Positions 10,681 to 48,600 of a stretch of DNA of 64,000 nt are shown piece by piece. The position numbers were made by a program, and so were the translations under genes. A model generated the notes under the pieces. That model saw only the letters and a list, made by a program, of their open reading frames with translations. It made no database searches and was not told where the DNA came from. Position 1 is the stretch's first letter, and every line of letters starts with the position of its first letter. Source of the DNA: Phorcus lineatus. Its lineage: Eukaryota; Mollusca; Gastropoda; Trochida; Trochidae. The stretch lies in the NCBI GenBank assembly GCA_921293015.1, contig OV121096.1, forward strand, positions 9,365,000 through 9,428,999, read 5' to 3'.

Positions 10681-10824
10681 TCAAGTAGAGAAGAATCGCC
10701 TAACTTTCGGCGTTAGAAGCCGGAAGAAAGATTGTGGGAACATGGTATGGGAGACGTTTGCGTACTTGAGGTACGTGTAGGGCTGCGCAATCACCTCCAG
10801 CAATGCGTTCAGTAACTTCCGGTC
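10681..10824 (-). CDS. SCUBE: SCUBE exon 22: C-terminal tail, stop codon
   Basis: Encodes [40 protein letters not shown] and VRRFFST, then TGA at 10683-10681. It parallels vertebrate [20 protein letters not shown] and MFPRSFIRLLRSKVSRFLR. Acceptor TTTTCCAG. The terminus is FFST rather than the vertebrate FLRPYK. Confidence 0.96.
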   Translation of the reverse strand, partial: DRKLLNALLEVIAQPYTYLKYANVSHTMFPQSFFRLLTPKVRRFFST

Positions 10825-13800
10825 CTGGAAAAATAATCAAATAAGTACATTCAGTCAACAGATTAATGCACGAAAACATGTCATTCAATGAACGATAACG
10901 CACTTCTTGGATTAATTAGTTCACATGTAGATAACTGCAAGAAATTTATTTTATTGTAAAAAGTATTAAGGCATTTTCATTTCACCTTAAATATCTGTTG
11001 ATGTTGATATGAGTTGTACAGCCGTCCGTCCCTGACGATGTCCTCTATAAGTGTCTGGTACTCCTCTGTCAACACAACACAAGCTTCTAAAGCACAAATT
11101 CATATATAATTTATGTCTGTGAAGTACAAATATTACGACATTTGTACAGTATTGAGGATTCAAAGTCACCTGTACCAAGATACTAGTTTACTTGGATACT
11201 CTTTTTCAATTGATTAACTTGACGTATATGTGTAATACCTTTAAGAGGAGATATGTTGATATGTTGGATGTTTCTGGATCGTATTACAATAATAAGATGA
11301 TACATTTGTAGTTAAAGGTACAGATCTATAGATACGAAATTATTATTATGAAGATAGGGTTGGGATGAATCTTACTGTAGCCATGAAACTAATTTAATGA
11401 TAAAGTCAATGTTCTTGACAGGAAAAGGTCACCATAATGTGTTGCGGAGGGTTGAGAATAAAGAAGACAGAAGTTAAGAAGGGTATTTTGTTTTTTTCTG
11501 ACAGAGAACTGATAATTTTACCATTAAAAGTGACGAAGGGCATGGAGAAGCCCTTTATATTTTTGTTTTCGAGAGACAAGACAAGGCTACCATTATAAGT
11601 GACGAAGGGTATAGAGAAGCCCCACATAATTTTGTTTTCGAGAGATACAAGACAAGGCTATCATGTTTTCGAGAGATACAAGACAAGGCTACCATACGAA
11701 GGGTATGGAGAAGCCCCTTATATTTATCGTTTTCGAAAGAGACAAGACAAGGCTACTATTATAAGTGACGAAGGGTATGGAGAAGCCCCTTATATTTTTG
11801 TTTTCGAAAGAGACAAGACAAGGCTACTATTATAAGTGACGAAGGGTATGGAGAAGCCCCTTATATTTTTGTTTTCGAGAGATACAAGACAAGGCTACCA
11901 TCATAAGTGACGAAGGGTATAGAGAAGCCCCACATAATTTTGTTTTCGAGGGAGACAAGACAAGGCTACTATTATAAGTGACGTAGGGTATGGAGAAGCC
12001 CTCATATTTTTGTTTTAGAGAGATACAAGACAAGGCTACCATTATAAGTGACGAAGGGTATAGAGAAGCCCCTTGCTGTGTTGTTGCCATCAGACTTGAA
12101 CTGGATCCAGAGCTTCTTGGAGCGCGCTGTGAATGCCACTGGCTGGTCTCGGCTTTTACATGTTTCGAACGTTGTCGTGCTGTATGGGGACTCTGTCAAA
12201 AGAATCAACAGCGCTCTTTTTATTCTCCGAAGAGACATGTAGGCTAATTCAGAGAGAACTGTGTCTCTTTAACTTAGTTTAAAAAAATGGCAGACGTGTT
12301 ATTAATCTCGAGTTCTAAGTGTTGATATTCAGTTTGAATATGTTAATCTTAGTACAAAATTATCAAGAATCATGTTACTGATCTCCGAGGAAAAAGCGTT
12401 TGCTATGTAGTATCTGGGAAAATGTTCATGGGAGCAATAACAAAATTGAAGATCGTTATAAGATTGAAAAAGAAGAAGCGTCTTCATTGTATAACTCGAA
12501 TGGGTAAAAAGACAACTACAAAAATCTCAGTCTTCAAGAATAAATTGTCTTCGAGAAAGTTTTAGGGTGTGACCTCTGAAGCACACAATAGATGCCCAAG
12601 GGTGACAAATCTGCTATCTAACATTCTCATTGGCAACCCATAGAGCACTCTTACTTGATTTCCTCATCACCAGAACATCCCCGCATTTGTCGTCTTCTCG
12701 TAGATAGATTTCCGGGATAATCACTAAAATCCGCCGGGTCTTCTCAGGCTTTATCTTCCACGTGCATTGCACGTTGATTGGGTAGTCTCCGGGGTAGTTG
12801 GGCGTCTCGATCACTCCCTGGTATCGCCCCTTGTAGCCCCCACATCTTCGATCTGATAGGATACAATGAACATATACAGAAATAGAGCAAAACCTTTTGA
12901 AAGATACCAGATACTACCTTACAAACTTGTTGGATTGAAAACTTTCAAGGACACATCGGGCATTCAGAGGAACCAAACATTACTAAAGCTGAATAAACTG
13001 GTTAACATCTTTATTTTGATAATGCACGATCTTTCGGGGCACTTAACCTTTCATCAGGAAAGTTCATATACTTTCTCAAAAACGAATTTCTATTCCTATA
13101 TTATTTTTCTGATATCTAGGTCTCATTCATGAACTCACTTTTGCAGCTGCTCGGAGCGGTTGCGCCGGCGGTGTCGGTGGTGGTGGAACCAGGGCATGTA
13201 ATGCAGTAGTTGTAGCCTGACTTAGGCTGGTAGGTTCCCCGGGGACATATCTGGCACCCGTGTACCGAGACGTTGTAGAAGTGGCCTGGGCTACACACGG
13301 CTGTGGAATTTGATTGAGATTATGATAATGCCATAATGTCGGAATGTTCTACTTCATGCTAAACGACTTAAACATTTATAAATGACTCCATCATCATAAA
13401 AGTGATTAAAAGTAAATGCATACAATATACAACTCTTGTAAATTGCACATGTTGTGTGAGACAACTCTATCTTAATTGTATTATTTATAATATGTGTGTT
13501 AAGTGTATAAAGTGCTCCGCGTTCTGTAGCACGCCATTTTCAGATGTAAAAGTGGGCGTTTGCAAACACTTTTTGTCTTAAATCACCCCGCAATCAATAT
13601 GTCTCTGGATGAAGGGTCTCTTTTTCAGTACCTCTTGCTATGCAGTCCCGGAAGTGCGCGGCGCCCGTGACCCGAGTCCTCATACCGGACCCGCACTGAA
13701 TACAGGAAGTGCGGCCATAGTCGGGCTGGTACTGTCCATAGTCGCAGGGAGAACACGGCTTCCGTCCATGGTGGGAGATAGTTCCCGGCTCGCATAGGTC

Positions 13801-16800
13801 TGTTTGTATAAAAGATTTAAGTTGTTATCAAATAAAGTCGAGTTGCAGATCTAGGAATTTACAAAAGCCGGAGATGGTTTGTGGGTTCACCTTTCTTTCC
13901 TGTAATTTTTCTTAAAACAATTTGAAGAGTGACATAAATATGATTGGTTGATTTAACATCGCTTACATCATCTTAAATGCACCAACATACTCCTTCTTAT
14001 CCAACATCTCTTAAATTAAACCTTCCCTACAATCCATCCCTTCAGTAAGGATCTGTTTGTTTTCATAAAAAAATAAATATTATTTAATCCGACCTCTCTT
14101 CAAACGGTAAATATAGAGGTTGAATTGGTTGTATTTTGATGGTATTTATTGATGAGATTTCCCGCGAATTCGTATACCTGTACATTCCGCTGCCGTTTTT
14201 GCGCCCAAAACGCCCATGCCTGGCTTCTTGTTTGGACAATCCTTACAGAGATGCTTGCCCTCATGATCCTGATAGGTTCCCTTAGGACAAGGCAAGCACT
14301 TCCGGTCCGCAGAGTTGTAGAACGTGCCCACACTGCACGCAACTGAAACGTTATGTTATTAAAACGAATAATAATTATCATTTAAGTTAACAAAGAACTT
14401 TCTAATGGCACTTCCGGTTCACAGAGTTGAAGAACAAGCCTAAACTGCATGCAACTGCAACATAATGTTGGTAAAACGAACAATTATTACAGGTATTAAA
14501 GATCTTTCTGATGGCTCAATGGTCCGTAATATCGTACAACGAGCTCCTATTGCAGACAGCTGCATATGTTGGTAAATGAAACATGTTTACAGTGATCCAC
14601 TGTTGACTTAAGTAACAAATTAAAGAATTTAATGGCAGCTTCTCTGGCCCGCACTCTTGTAGAAATTACCAAAACTTGACTGATAGTAACAGGAAAATCA
14701 GTAGAAGAACACGGGTATACTTTAGATCGGTGAACGACATTACTCAATAGTGTGTGAATGTGACTAGATTAAATTGTTAAGAAGAAAGGCTTAAGTAAGT
14801 TATGCAAATGAGATGATTCCTTTAAAATACATTAAATTTTCCATGTAACTCTTATATAACAATTTTCTTGGTTGTCTTAGTGGATCAGCCAATCAAAATT
14901 CGACCGTGTAAATCAAGACACCAAAAAAACCGTTTTCGCATGTCCATGTTGAATTAGAAAAGACTCGGACCTTTTTATAGTCGAGAATGCGTCTAAAATA
15001 ACGAGTGAGTGAATTATTGTTCAACGCCACTTCGGCAATATTTCAGCCATTAGCGGCGAACGTCTAAAATACCTCTTATCTTTAAGAATTCACATGTTTG
15101 AATGTACTATATAAATAACTTCAAAGATGAACTGACATGCCTGGTCGGTATGGCAGTAAGGTTGCTTCTCGAAGGTAACTTTGAAAATCTGTGAAGAAAT
15201 GTATATAGGAGTAACTGACAATTAATGCTACCGTCAAGGCAGGACCGCTTCGTATATTGAACTGGATATTAAGAGAACAGTAGCACGTTTTTATAGATGA
15301 ATAAAGTGATTCCAAAAAACGACAAAAAATGTCGATTTCAAGAAGGTGATTTTTAACCAAATGAAGTAGTTTTAAAACGAACGTAAGTCATTCGAATTCA
15401 TTTCCCAACCTCAAATAATTAAAAGATGTTCAAACTAATATGGCCGCCAAAGGTTTTTGTTCACTTGATTATTTCCTCAAAGACTACGGATGATCGGGTC
15501 GAGTAATTGGATGTTTGACCCTCTGAAGATGATACATTTGGCATGAACTAATGTTTATTGGGGAAATTTTAAAGAAATAAATCTTTCAAGAAACGTGCTA
15601 CGGTCCCTTTAACAAACATACATGAATTTTGATAGAAATGAAAAGGTACTTATAATATAAAATGAGCACATACCACAGATCTGATTGACCATAACGGTTC
15701 CTCTTGAACACGCCGGGGAAACTGATTTCTCAGGCTTGAACGTCTTCTTGATTATCTCCATGGGAATGCCGCCATACCTAGGAAGGTAATAATACATTTA
15801 TTCATATATTATTTGTTAAACATGAATATTGGATATTACTTATTGCATGAAAAATATGTATATATCATATATTTTGTATTATATATAAAATGATATTTAA
15901 AAAAAGGTTTTATAAAATTGAATCAATATTTGTAATTTCAATATTATTTTAAAATAATTGTTGAAATTTAGGCCTCCTGAAGCCGGTTGTGTGTTGTTGT
16001 TTTTAATCTTTATCCTTCATTAATTTTTTATTACCTTATGCAACACGTGGAACTATAATAAACCATATTTATTTATTTTATGATTATCAATAACATATTC
16101 ATCTTCCCACAACGTACAACACAAAGTTTATTTTGTGGATACGCCGGTGCAAGTGCTTTAAAGAGTCACTCTGTGATTTTCATAACATATTTTTTACCTT
16201 TGATACGAACCTAAATGTCATATGTGGTGATATAAAATCAAACATCTTATCTTTTCATGTCCAAAAGACATATATATGACAAATACTAGTTTTCCTTGAT
16301 AATCTTAAAACAGCCTTATAAATGCACAGAGGTGTAGATATCACGTCCAAACACTATCATTTCCTAACTGCCTTCCTGGCTGTTTTAGATAAGTCTCCAA
16401 AATTACGTTTGACTATTTGACGCGCGCCACTGTCCGGTTTTCGATCATAATTGCGACGTTCTACCTTCATATTGTCACTGTAAAAATCCAACAAGCTTTA
16501 GAATGTGTCTTTTTAGTAACAGTCGATACTTCGCGATCAAATGACGCCATTGATTAAGTTTGGCATATATGACTCCAACAACTCACGGAGTGGCTCTTTA
16601 ACAGCGCCATCAATCTGGACCAAATTATCATGCTTATCATGCGACATTAACTGTAACAAATCTCTTATGTATATGATTCCACGAAATAACCGGGAGTCAT
16701 TGTCTTTTCATTGAAATCACAACGTCCTGCAATTATGTTTAAAAAGGAGGTTTTGCCATTATGATGAGTGTTAGTCCTTTTATTCATTCATTAAAAAATA

Positions 16801-31800: not shown

Positions 31801-34800
31801 ACCCTAAGTAGAAACGGACAATTTTAGACAAGTTACCTGCACATAGCATTTGGGGGAATTTCGAAGTTATTGCATGCAGTGAGATAAAGACAATGCGAAC
31901 CATGTAGTTAATATCATAAGAGTCATTGCTTTTAAAGTGGGGGTAACACAGATATTTAAAGAATATTAAACATAGGAGGGGTAAATACCAGAGCATGGGA
32001 CTAATCACATGCGAGAAAATGAGAAAACAGGACGCCAAGTACAGACAGAGAATACTGGACTGATGTTGTAAAGACAGATGGAGTTAATCTTAGAATAATC
32101 AGAGGCAAATAGGGAATAGGAGACGAATCATGTCCAGAGAATGGATCATATTGTATAAACATGCATGAACAACATAAGAGCAGATGAGATTGAATTAAAT
32201 GTGTAAGGGAAGGATTCCAGTGAGTATAGAGATGTTGCGCTGAACCAATGTCAAAGTCTCGCACGGTTGTGACCTTTCCATAAGAGCAACATCAGAAAAC
32301 TCTGAAGGGACCTTTCTCGCGTGCAAACTATCCAAAGAATCCAGTCAACAGTTCTTCAAATATTCCAAGTCGTACGACCCTACCCGATTCGATAAACTTT
32401 CTCAATTATTAACCGTTGCAACCAATTGCTATCTAAAAATATGATAAAAGCTTACACGTAGAATCCGGCTGATTTTGGAGATAAGAGTATTTTTTAAGTT
32501 AAACCTAACACAACTTTAGCTCCCTAAGATGGCCTATGATGCCCACGGCAAAATGTTCATCCTTTTGCAAACGTTTGTCAACGCGTTATTTGAACTGTTT
32601 CAACCAATGTGCAAAGTTTAGTTACATTGCTCCAACACGAATACAGTAGTCGAGTTTCGTTACCGTTATATTATTTTCAAGGCAACAGCGACACTTTGGC
32701 AATTTTAAAACTTTTGTTAGTACGGTTCACCCTGGACCGTTGCGGCAAGTGATTTTGTTATAGTCAACCCGGAAGATTACTGAATACATATCATAAGCCG
32801 CAGTTGTCAGACCTCTTCTCGCCATGGCATACATCTTCATGACAACTGCATCTCTTGGTATTCCGTAATGCAATGATGTATCGAGAAAAAGCTTCCGACC
32901 AAACAATCAAACTAATTAGAGTGTGCAACTTCATTAGTAGTCATCAGTGGGGAAAGGTTAGTAACCAATATTGTTCAAATGTAATCAGCTATTTATATCA
33001 ACAATCTCTCAAATTAGAACGCTGAAATGAAGATGTGTTAAGCTTTTCTGCAGCAGATGATATCCATCATTTGTGACATGGGAAAGTGAAACAAGAAAAC
33101 ATGGTAGATGAGCCGTCCCGACCTGAAGAGCCAGCAGCTATGTTACGGCATACCGGCCAATGACGGCGAATTCCCTGCCTACTTCACCAACTGCGGTTTT
33201 CTTGTTAACGGGAGCAAAGTATACAACAGTCGCTACGCGCTTCGGGTTGCTAGCCATTCATCATACAGGCCGTGACAGTCGAGAAGCCAACACATTCTTA
33301 GTGGCAGTTGAGAAGTCAACACTATCAGGCACCATTTCCTGAATACCGACTACATCCCATTCATCTTTCTTCCAGCGTGTCATCTATTTCTATTCTACTT
33401 TGCAAACCGTAAACATATTACATTGTTATTTGGCACTCATCGATAATATTTTGGTCTTTCATATCATTTGAATAGTGATGTTATAAGCATTTTTGCGTAT
33501 TCCCTTACTATTTCTACCAAGAACTGAGGTCAATAAAGGAAGCAAAAGAGGTCAGCGTTATGAGTGAATGTTTAACTTTTATAGAAAAGCCTATGGATTA
33601 AACAATCAAAACTACTTACAACGAATTCGTTTCATCATGTATGTGAATGTTTATAGGGCGGTTCATAAACGTAATTAAAGTTGAATTTTAATCTTTAAAA
33701 CTGGGGCACGTCTATCTAATATTGGTGTAGTTCCGACCTACTTTGAAAATTCCATAGGACCGAATCGAAGTCAAAGTTTGGCAAAACCAGAATAGCTACC
33801 CAACCCAGATCGGTTTATTGCGTACTAGGTTTCAAAGAAACGTCTCACAACTTACGTAGTAAATACCGGGTACGAGCCGATAACAACAAAAAACCTCACG
33901 AGGACACGACCGAGCAGAGTTTTCTGCATAAGACTAGAAAATCAAGTCATTAACGTCCCCCGCCACTAAGTGAAAGGGCGATGAAGGTTTGTGTTTCGTC
34001 CGTGCGACTGACTGAGTAAAAGGTGAAAATTCTCCTTGACAGCCCGGCGTTTAAGATAGGACAACCAAACCTGGTGTGTGGTTGAAGGGTATCGATACCT
34101 TGATGGAAATCGTTAATGAACAGCATACGATTATCATCGCTTATCATATTAGTTATTATCCATTTCTTTGAGTCTGCTCGAGGGTAATGTGTGAAGTTGA
34201 AGTGAGTTTGGATTTGGCGGGGATGTGTTTTCACTCCTGTATAAAAATAATGGGGTTTTTTACTAAACAAATATATATAGATTATAGAGCCATTGGCTCT
34301 GTATCTTGCCAGGCTATCTATAATTAATTATACAAAGGGTCACAGTATGAGGGACCAAAGGAACTTCTAATCTATACGTTATAATTCCCATCAGCTGTAA
34401 AGAGTCGGCACACAGGGTTTATCCTAGGCATTTTGCATCTTTAGAAGACGATGAAAAAAGGTTTTAGCGCATGGCTCCTGCAGCCCTTATTAGGGGTAAC
34501 AGTATCATCAAATTTATTACTCAGAATTCCAATCACTGAGGTTTCTGTGTACAAGTATTCAAGCTTTCCAGACATTTTGCTTCTGAAGAAGAAGATGAAA
34601 AAATGTTTTTGGGACGTGGCCCTAATCAGGTGCCACAGTGTCGTCAAATCTTTAAATAAGAAACCCCATCAGCCAAGGCGTCTTAGGTTTAAGCTTTCTG
34701 GGTCATTTTTCTACGGAGAAGAAGATGAAAATATGTTTACAGGGCGTGACCATATGGCCCTTATTAGGCCAAGGGTCACAGAATCACCAAATCAAGAAAT

Positions 34801-45600: not shown

Positions 45601-48600
45601 AATATAAGACATTTCATTTCATTTATCACGAAGAAATGTAATGAAATATGAACGTGAAATAACAAGGCTAGAAAATACAAGGCTAGAAAATACAAAAGGA
45701 TAATGAAGTAAATGATATTTCTCATACCATTGTTTTAAACATTTATACAAGTACTTTCGAAGCTCTCTCAAACCTAAGATTTACGAGTTTCTTAATGCTA
45801 AGAGGGCTTCGAAAAATCTAGGCCCTGATACACAACTACATTTCTTAAAATGATGATTACAGTTCTAGAATAAGCAGGTGCCTACTTATATCCAACCTTC
45901 CAAAAATATGTCACAACTATGATGTTCATATCAGATATGTAAATTATTTTCCCAAACGTTGAACAAATAGTTATACCTGAAGGTTGCTGGCCATTGCTCT
46001 TTTGTATTGTTCAGCATTTCGACGTTTGAGCTAACGTTTATCAGTGGTCTTTAATACTCTTTATATAGAGATGTTCTAAAGCGAGAAAGCAATAAATCAC
46101 CGGAGAGATGGTATCGGTAAACGCCGTGGACTAAGATAAGGTGTGCATTCTGTCTATCAATGACGCGTATTTGTAGCTGTCTCGCTCACCTGAACAAGTA
46201 AATGTAATCAGTGCCTATAAAGAGGGCACCTGTTGATTGTATCGGACAGCTGAGATGGAATGTCCAGGATGCGATGACCCAGAGAGGCCAGACACACATG
46301 CCAGATCACACACGTGTCAACGTGCAAGATTTGCTACCTACACGCACACAATCTGGTCATGGCGACTTAGCAAACGTGCTCAAATGTAACAATATTATCT
46401 CTGTTTGGAGTTGGGTGAATAGGCGTTTACCCAGACGAAGTTCTCATTACAAGGTGTGGTTAATCGTTATAGTCCTTTGAAAGGAGTTCTTCAGGGCTCC
46501 AACACGTCACCTTCTCGTTTGCAGTGAACCGGGCACTAATTATACTAATCAGCGGTAACCTAATAGACTTTATTCCCTTTAAAGAATACGGTTTCGCTTC
46601 GTACCATGTACATATTCAAGTGATACGAAAGATGCCTTAAAAAGTGTTTCTCATCCTGAATCTAAGAAGTTCAAGACATGGCATGATACTTAGTTTTGTC
46701 CGAATTTACAGTGTTAACGTTTTGCTTTCATACACATCGGGTAATCCAAAACCTGTTAATTGAATAAGATCACTTGAAGTTTGTGGCAAAATATAATGTT
46801 TTTTGTCGTTACTTCATGTATGCACGTATGTAAGTGTTAATAGAGGCAAACTTCCTCCACAAGTGGTGAACGTTTCATAAGTTGTAATTTTCTTAATTGT
46901 GGTTACCTTGAATAACAACCAAACTTTTCATTCTAAATTCTCATTACTTTAATTGTTTTTAAATAGTGGAGTCATTTTAGAATGTTGTCTTATGTAGACC
47001 TGCCGAGTACTTCAAATAAAATCTAGTTGAAACTCTGATACGTTGTGTGGATTAACTGATGATGGTATCAACCCCCTTATAAATACCTTACACATTTGTG
47101 AGTATCGTGAAATCTTGATTGTGGTTAGCTTGCATGAAATGTGAGGTATAAAGAATGCGACCTGTCATTATTGACAAAATCATGATATCAAATGGATGCG
47201 CCCAACTACCATGCTGATAATACCGCCACTGACATATCGGACTGGGAACGCCAATCTAGGTATTCATGTATAGAATCATCAGACATGGTGCTGAGCTCGA
47301 TTACGGAAGATTGCGAGTCGATTGATCAACAATAATAAGATGTATATCCGTTCCACACGTAATATAAGTTGAATGGTAGTCGAGCGCTGGATTTACAGGT
47401 GCCAGGATCCAGTCATTATTAACTATAGGTGATGGGGTCAAGCCATTATTAACTAAAGGTGCCAGAATAGAGCCTTACTGTACTAAAGGTTCCAGGATCG
47501 AGCTATTAATAACCCCAGTTTCAGTAGATTTACTTACTTTAGGTGCAGGCTCGTGCCATTATAACTATGAGTGTAAGGGCCGAGCCCTTCTTTGCAGAAG
47601 GTGGCAGAATAGAACCATATTAAACTAACGGTACCAGGATTGGGCCATTATTAACTAAAGATATCAGGATCGAGTCAGATCTGCGAACTAAAGGGACAGG
47701 GTGGGGCCGTTATAGAATAAAGGTGACAGGATCGAGTCATAAACTATAAGTGTAAAGGTTAAGCCATTATTAACGAAAGATGCTAGGAGCGAACAATTAT
47801 GAAATAAACATGCCAGGTTACAGCCATTATAAACTAATTATGCTAGGAACGACCAATTGTAGAGTAGATATGCCAAGGGCGAGGAATGGTAAATAAAAGG
47901 TGCCAGGATCGAGGTGTTAAATCATGAAGGTGCCATTATACAACCATTATGTACTCAAAGTTTCAGGAACGAGCCTTCATGAACTAAAGATGCCAGGATC
48001 TAGACTTTATTTTCAGGGGCATACCTTGTCGGCTTAGGGTGAAGTATATTGAAGGTGAAATGATTTTTATCAGGCTACTTATCATATGTAAAAGTTGGCA
48101 GTAACCAATACTAAAGAATTAGTTACTCTCCAGAAGTTAAGCAAACTACTTTTATGCAACTTGTGTCTACCCCGCCTCCATTCGCTTAGCAAATGTGAAA
48201 AGACTAACTAACTCTAGTTGAAGGCACTATTAGAAATATGACTTCTCCGACAGGTAGACATCAACTTCAAATAATTAAGCAATGAAAATCAAATGTTCTA
48301 TATCATGGCTAGACAAGTCACCCCATCACATATTGATGTTCCTAATTTATCAAGCATGACTACACATTACCCTTTACGTTCAACCAAAATCAGCACTGCA
48401 TTGTTCAAAGTCTAAGGTCTGAATTTTTATCATTTCGCTTAAATATTTGTTATAAACAAAAATCAGTAACAATGTCATGTAATTATATCATAACCTACCA
48501 CAGGGAAAAAGGAACGGTGATATGTGATAGTATACACACACGGTCTGTTAAATCCAAAATTGTCTGACCAGAATAACTTCAAATAGTATCGAATAGCATG

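Follow-up and report, generated by a model that had tools for sequence, protein, structure and literature searches.

Mirage-like tandem copies of two exon-intron boundaries in a SCUBE gene of the mollusc Phorcus lineatus

Tandem arrays built from copies of an exon-intron boundary have been described in lancelet genes as mirages. According to the excerpted text of two reports (PMC3087553, PMC3902484), they occur in Adh3, in the globin genes BflGb6 and BflGb9 and in TnC, with units of 10 to 72 bp in Adh3 and of 150 to 160 bp in the globins; they lie at either edge of an exon, have a homogenized core, diverged edges and an unstable length, and go together with normal splicing. PGBD5 is likened to them in the same excerpts (PMC3087553, PMC3902484). 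Human exon-intron boundary repeats can produce new introns, as stated in the part consulted of a further report (PMC2812944). We analyzed a stretch of 64,000 nucleotides from contig OV121096.1 of the gastropod Phorcus lineatus (herein the window), in which a single SCUBE gene carries two arrays whose units span an exon-intron boundary. Both resemble the lancelet mirages as these are excerpted (PMC3087553, PMC3902484): the copies are in tandem, one of them is authentic, and many carry splice signals.

The gene is encoded on the minus strand, and its exons were read from the open frames by pattern and by eye. The parts needed here are as follows.

27.6 to 19.9 kb, minus strand: nine EGF-like exons (pattern and eye)
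14.3, 13.8 and 13.3 kb, minus strand: three CR exons (pattern and eye)
12852..12655 and 12192..12040, minus strand: the CUB domain, in two exons
12040..12192, minus strand: second half of the CUB domain, exon 20 of the preliminary description (frame, splice phases and Pfam)
10986..11065, minus strand: exon 21 of the preliminary description, 80 nt, part of the C-terminal tail (frame)
10681..10824, minus strand: last coding exon, DRKLLNAL...RRFFST and stop, part of the C-terminal tail (frame)

The last four exons, when joined, match Pfam CUB over residues 3 through 112 with 65.7 bits (cut-off 21.4). Exon 12192..12040 has the acceptor ACAG|AGTCCC and the donor ATAATG|GTAGCC (GT at 12039); spliced from this donor to exon 11065..10986 it stays in phase and yields the conserved C-terminal tail. 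EGF-like exons, CR exons, one CUB domain in two exons and the conserved tail are thus all present, and the SCUBE identity proposed in the preliminary description holds on this layout and the Pfam CUB match, as distinct from an alignment to a named SCUBE sequence, with the spacer exons and exon 1 left out. Human SCUBE genes have the same layout in the excerpt consulted, which places the CUB domain of SCUBE3 in exons 19 and 20 (PMC10214685). A search of the genome for a further SCUBE gene found none: four of its five matches are exons of the present gene, and the fifth, on contig C7, is a CUB domain with 27% identity.

On the minus strand, the tail of exon 12192..12040 (32 to 35 nt) is repeated downstream, each time with the GT donor and ∼38 intronic nucleotides, in an array of ∼71-nt units and ∼0.6 kb. 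Tandem Repeats Finder (TRF) reports a period of 71 nt at 11696-12074 (5.3 copies, 91% matches, score 623), with further 69-nt and 31-nt stretches reaching down to 11519. In a full unit, a 32-nt tail with ATG or ATA at its end leads into ∼38 intronic nucleotides starting GTAGCC, and the units begin, in transcript sense, at 12071 (in the exon), 12001, 11930, 11859, 11788, 11716, 11622 and 11553. Split accordingly, the array reads as follows, all on the minus strand.

12002..12071, minus strand: U1, the authentic unit, with the 32-nt tail and 38 intronic nucleotides that open with the true donor (12039) and close with an in-frame TGA (12004-12002)
11931..12001, minus strand: U2, tail copy, donor ATA|GTAGCC
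11860..11930, minus strand: U3, tail copy, donor ATG|GTAGCC, one codon changed from N to D
11789..11859, minus strand: U4, tail copy, donor ATA|GTAGCC
11717..11788, minus strand: U5, tail copy, donor ATA|GTAGCC, 70/71 like U4
11664..11716, minus strand: U6a, tail with an 8-column deletion, donor retained
11623..11663, minus strand: U6b, intron part alone, GT changed to AT, within a 31-nt local duplication
11554..11622, minus strand: U7, tail identical to the exon (32/32), donor ATG|GTAGCC
11485..11553, minus strand: U8, tail 29/32 against the exon, intron part 21/36, donor ATG|GTAAAA at 11521
11410..11466, minus strand: U9, probable decayed copy, donor-like ATG|GTGACC at 11432

Base-by-base alignment leaves 28 to 32 of the 32 exon positions identical in all pairs of U1 through U5, U7 and U8, so the coding part is present in the repeats. 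Over shared positions U1 through U5 and U7 are 87 to 99% identical, from 62/71 (U2 and U3) to 70/71 (U4 and U5). The GT is kept in U1 through U5, U6a, U7, U8 and probable U9 and lost in U6b; many copies, not all, retain the splice dinucleotide. TRF and this division bear out the earlier proposals that the exon end, its donor and ∼38 intronic nucleotides were repeated downstream, that the array derives from these parts and that a series of near-identical donors follows one exon. Their details needed adjustment. Seven additional copies do bear a tail, one of them cut short and one (U8) absent from the earlier list; the unit placed at 11654 (U6b) has neither tail nor GT, the unit at 11685 (U6a) lacks eight tail columns, and both U8 (tail from 11553) and probable U9 (∼11466-11410) had been overlooked. 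The repeated coding part, given as 33 bases, is 32 nt, to which an AAG common to the ends of U3, U4 and U5 may be added. Searches of the 958-Mb genome with the array and with a single unit (very common words skipped) gave no match outside this locus, and a dispersed or mobile repeat was rejected on this result.

At the far end the array fades out. U9 was aligned as well in 1 of 2,000 shuffles (11484..11410), compared with 28/2,000 for the longer stretch 11518..11429 (90 nt past the U8 tail), 248/2,000 for the 39 nt directly past that tail, and 986/2,000 and 1,514/2,000 for two control stretches. Searching the whole window with two unit profiles (nhmmer) gave U9 E values of 0.1 and 0.21, and the match adjoins the array. 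A ninth, decayed copy is likely on these alignments. We also considered U8 as the ancestral donor, with the array ending at the original junction; probable U9 argues against this. In U8 the intron part has diverged more than the tail (Fisher P = 0.003, 0.014 and 0.010 against U1, U3 and U4, respectively), which is not what plain decay predicts. Because its distal copies, U8 and probable U9, have decayed, the array probably has a greater age than the core alone would indicate.

Exchange among the units is supported by the four-gamete test, in which 7 of 21 pairs among seven informative columns fail (U8 and U9 left out), and recurrent mutation could be an alternative source of the incompatible site pairs. 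The earlier alternative of a young or a homogenized array is narrowed by these results: youth is unlikely, given the 21/36 match of the U8 intron part and the weaker U9, but homogenization inside the array agrees with the incompatible pairs. One of the seven pairs (columns 10 and 70) depends on U1, the exon copy, alone, so conversion between array and exon, also raised earlier, is possible and unproven. A homogenized core with edge units left out is likewise a property of lancelet mirages in the excerpted report (PMC3087553); here it is seen at the distal edge, the opposite edge being the exon itself.

We consider it highly probable that the array is a neutral minisatellite that spans the boundary and is spliced out from the first donor. 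A tandem duplication of ∼71 bp would by chance have taken in the 3′ edge of the CUB exon along with the first part of its intron, and unequal exchange or slippage would have expanded it to a minisatellite. Selection would act on the first unit, which serves both as coding sequence and as splice donor, with the remaining units behaving as intron. The spliceosome would use the exon-adjacent donor, the sole one giving the conserved protein, and remove the array; leaky use of later donors would lead to a stop and probably to message decay. By analogy with the lancelet arrays and their undisturbed splicing, harmless removal is the most likely fate here.

Reading past the authentic donor adds 12 residues from the intron and ends at the TGA at 12004-12002. 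The seven later donors considered (U2 through U5, U6a, U7 and U8, with U9 left out) would retain 70 to 518 nt, and for each of the seven this stop sits 112 to 560 nt upstream of the last junction. A stop so far upstream of the last junction exposes a message to nonsense-mediated decay under the usual rule. Because of this distance, messages made from later donors would more probably be degraded than yield a truncated isoform. The earlier account of a few in-frame residues followed by a stop therefore stands, but not the truncated product it envisaged, since a stop placed there would be expected to send the message to decay.

Scored with donor-site base frequencies, 15 of the gene's donors (those of spacer exons and exon 1 left out) range from −1.45 to 5.01, and the authentic ATG|GTAGCC, at −1.45, is the lowest; 17% of the 3,794 minus-strand GTs score at least as high. 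U3, U6a and U7 have the authentic score, U2, U4 and U5 score −4.79 with A at position −1, and U8 (1.04) and U9 (1.00) score higher. With the authentic donor weak, and below U8 and U9, proximity or exon context must favor it, and leaky use of later donors is possible because it is the weakest of the 15. The intron donor GTAGCCTT has one mismatch to GTATCCTT, the donor of the U12-type consensus, which also has a branch site TTCCTTRAY near the acceptor. A U12-type intron, raised by this likeness, was set aside, as no good branch site was seen by eye in the last 40 nt.

The same scores bear on the idea that the decoys are used meaningfully, as an unproductive-splicing brake, with SCUBE output set by array length. 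Decoys equal to or better than a weak authentic donor, and a stop far enough upstream for all seven later donors examined, would suit such a brake, as would the altered splicing reported, in the excerpts consulted, for intronic repeats of TERT (PMC3948165) and an intronic repeat array of ABCA7 (PMC5954066). Against it, U2, U4 and U5 are poor donors by virtue of the A at −1, and the lancelet precedents are spliced normally in their excerpted reports (PMC3087553, PMC3902484); we regard the brake as unlikely. Decidedly improbable, in our estimation, is a version in which conversion by the array dragged the exon donor to the weak GTAGCC, array length now setting the amount of message lost to decay. 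U8 and probable U9, at the array edge, have A at position +4, unlike the authentic donor, and conversion of the exon by the array is, as noted, possible.

A truncated SCUBE isoform, made on purpose and ending after the CUB domain, is very improbable: the frame is open to a stop directly past that domain, but with the stop so placed the message would be expected to decay, and the 12 extra residues are read from intron sequence. Copies made or multiplied by the assembler have a precedent in one lancelet mirage that was aberrantly assembled in a genome draft (PMC3087553, in excerpt), but are hardly credible for a ∼0.6-kb array in an assembly of 74 contigs, which suggests long reads, and for units that carry private substitutions and indels and decay at the distal edge. 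The preferred reading is still that of a neutral minisatellite removed from the first donor.

Among the 31 known splice boundaries of the gene two have copies across them, the CUB-exon donor and the acceptor of the first CR exon. The second array consists of the following units.

14296..14409, minus strand: authentic unit, 114 nt, in which the final 67 nt of the intron precede 47 nt from the start of the CR exon; AG ends at 14343
14408..14515, minus strand: copy 2, 108 nt, 76% identity, just upstream; pseudo-acceptor GTTGCAG ending at 14455
14515..14640, minus strand: copy 3, decayed; AG ending at 14560

Past its pseudo-acceptor, copy 2 has a short open frame that ends in a stop. Copy 3 was equaled by 0 of 1,000 shuffles when aligned with the authentic unit and by 2 of 1,000 when aligned with copy 2; for the next stretch upstream (14900..14641) the corresponding numbers are 122 and 266 of 1,000. 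Judged by these sequences, the acceptor-edge array is older than the donor-edge array.

Two boundary arrays in one gene are what chance would give. Short-spaced tandem clusters, 13 in number, take up 6.4% of the window. When they are placed at random, 1.86 of the 31 boundaries are covered on average, a mean of 1.32 clusters touch a boundary, and two or more do so in 38.9% of trials (P = 0.389); with the donor-edge array left out, one or more clusters touch a boundary in 70.8% of trials. The two boundary-touching clusters of 13 fit random placement. Minisatellites (period of 20 or more, 2.5 copies or more) occur in 16 of 60 other loci, some of them one array seen in overlapping loci. Because chance placement and minisatellite density suffice, no function has to be invoked for the boundary arrays, which suggests that they are the chance yield of a minisatellite-rich genome. 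Two further stretches of the window, 34426-34754 and 47394-47829, hold diverged, short-spaced tandem duplications whose best pairs are 69% and 74% identical, outside the known exons.

Boundary-spanning copies were sought at 65 other loci (matches to CUB, kinase and haemocyanin) and found at 0 of 65, in a search with a cut-off of 1e-6 where exon ends are domain edges only, flanks are 1.5 kb, several loci overlap and many matches are probably single-exon. Its sole match (L077) was rejected, lying inside the matched coding stretch. At another locus (L027:1740-2268) a 45-nt minisatellite of 11.8 copies starts 42 nt from the edge of a CUB match on the minus strand and appears, by eye, to lie near an exon acceptor. 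All 16 matches above cut-off to the haemocyanin beta-sandwich (PF14830) fall on contig C12 in two runs of eight (C12:7646582-7661095 and 16557773-16572398), ∼9 Mb apart and on opposite strands. Runs of eight such domains are a molluscan trait, and by this mark the genome is that of a mollusc.

Several known systems share features with the SCUBE arrays. Internal tandem repeats in human segmental duplications also have minisatellite units across a boundary and can shift splicing in the excerpt consulted (PMC2812944); they vary from one recent paralog to another and are backed by transcripts, whereas no second genomic copy of the SCUBE gene was found. Intron gain in a potato RdRp gene (PMC4974935) and novel introns of Drosophila (PMC2891723) began, as excerpted, with a short tandem duplication that duplicated splice signals, across an intron-exon boundary in potato; these gave new introns, whereas a new intron is not indicated here. 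The 38-bp repeats of TERT likewise form a minisatellite within an intron of a coding gene (PMC3948165, in excerpt). The phenomenon itself is already known from the lancelet mirages; a mollusc is a new phylum for it within the literature searched, where no molluscan mirage turned up among open-licence papers and subscription papers were mostly outside the scope. The SCUBE arrays offer a natural test of how the spliceosome chooses among near-identical donors ∼71 nt apart, and of whether decoys can convert a working splice site. For lancelets, length variation and normal splicing have been reported; the SCUBE arrays are known from the sequence of one assembly. Unlike the lancelet cases, they lie in a mollusc, in a SCUBE gene, and at a donor edge and an acceptor edge of the same gene, and they extend boundary-spanning mirage arrays from lancelets to a mollusc.
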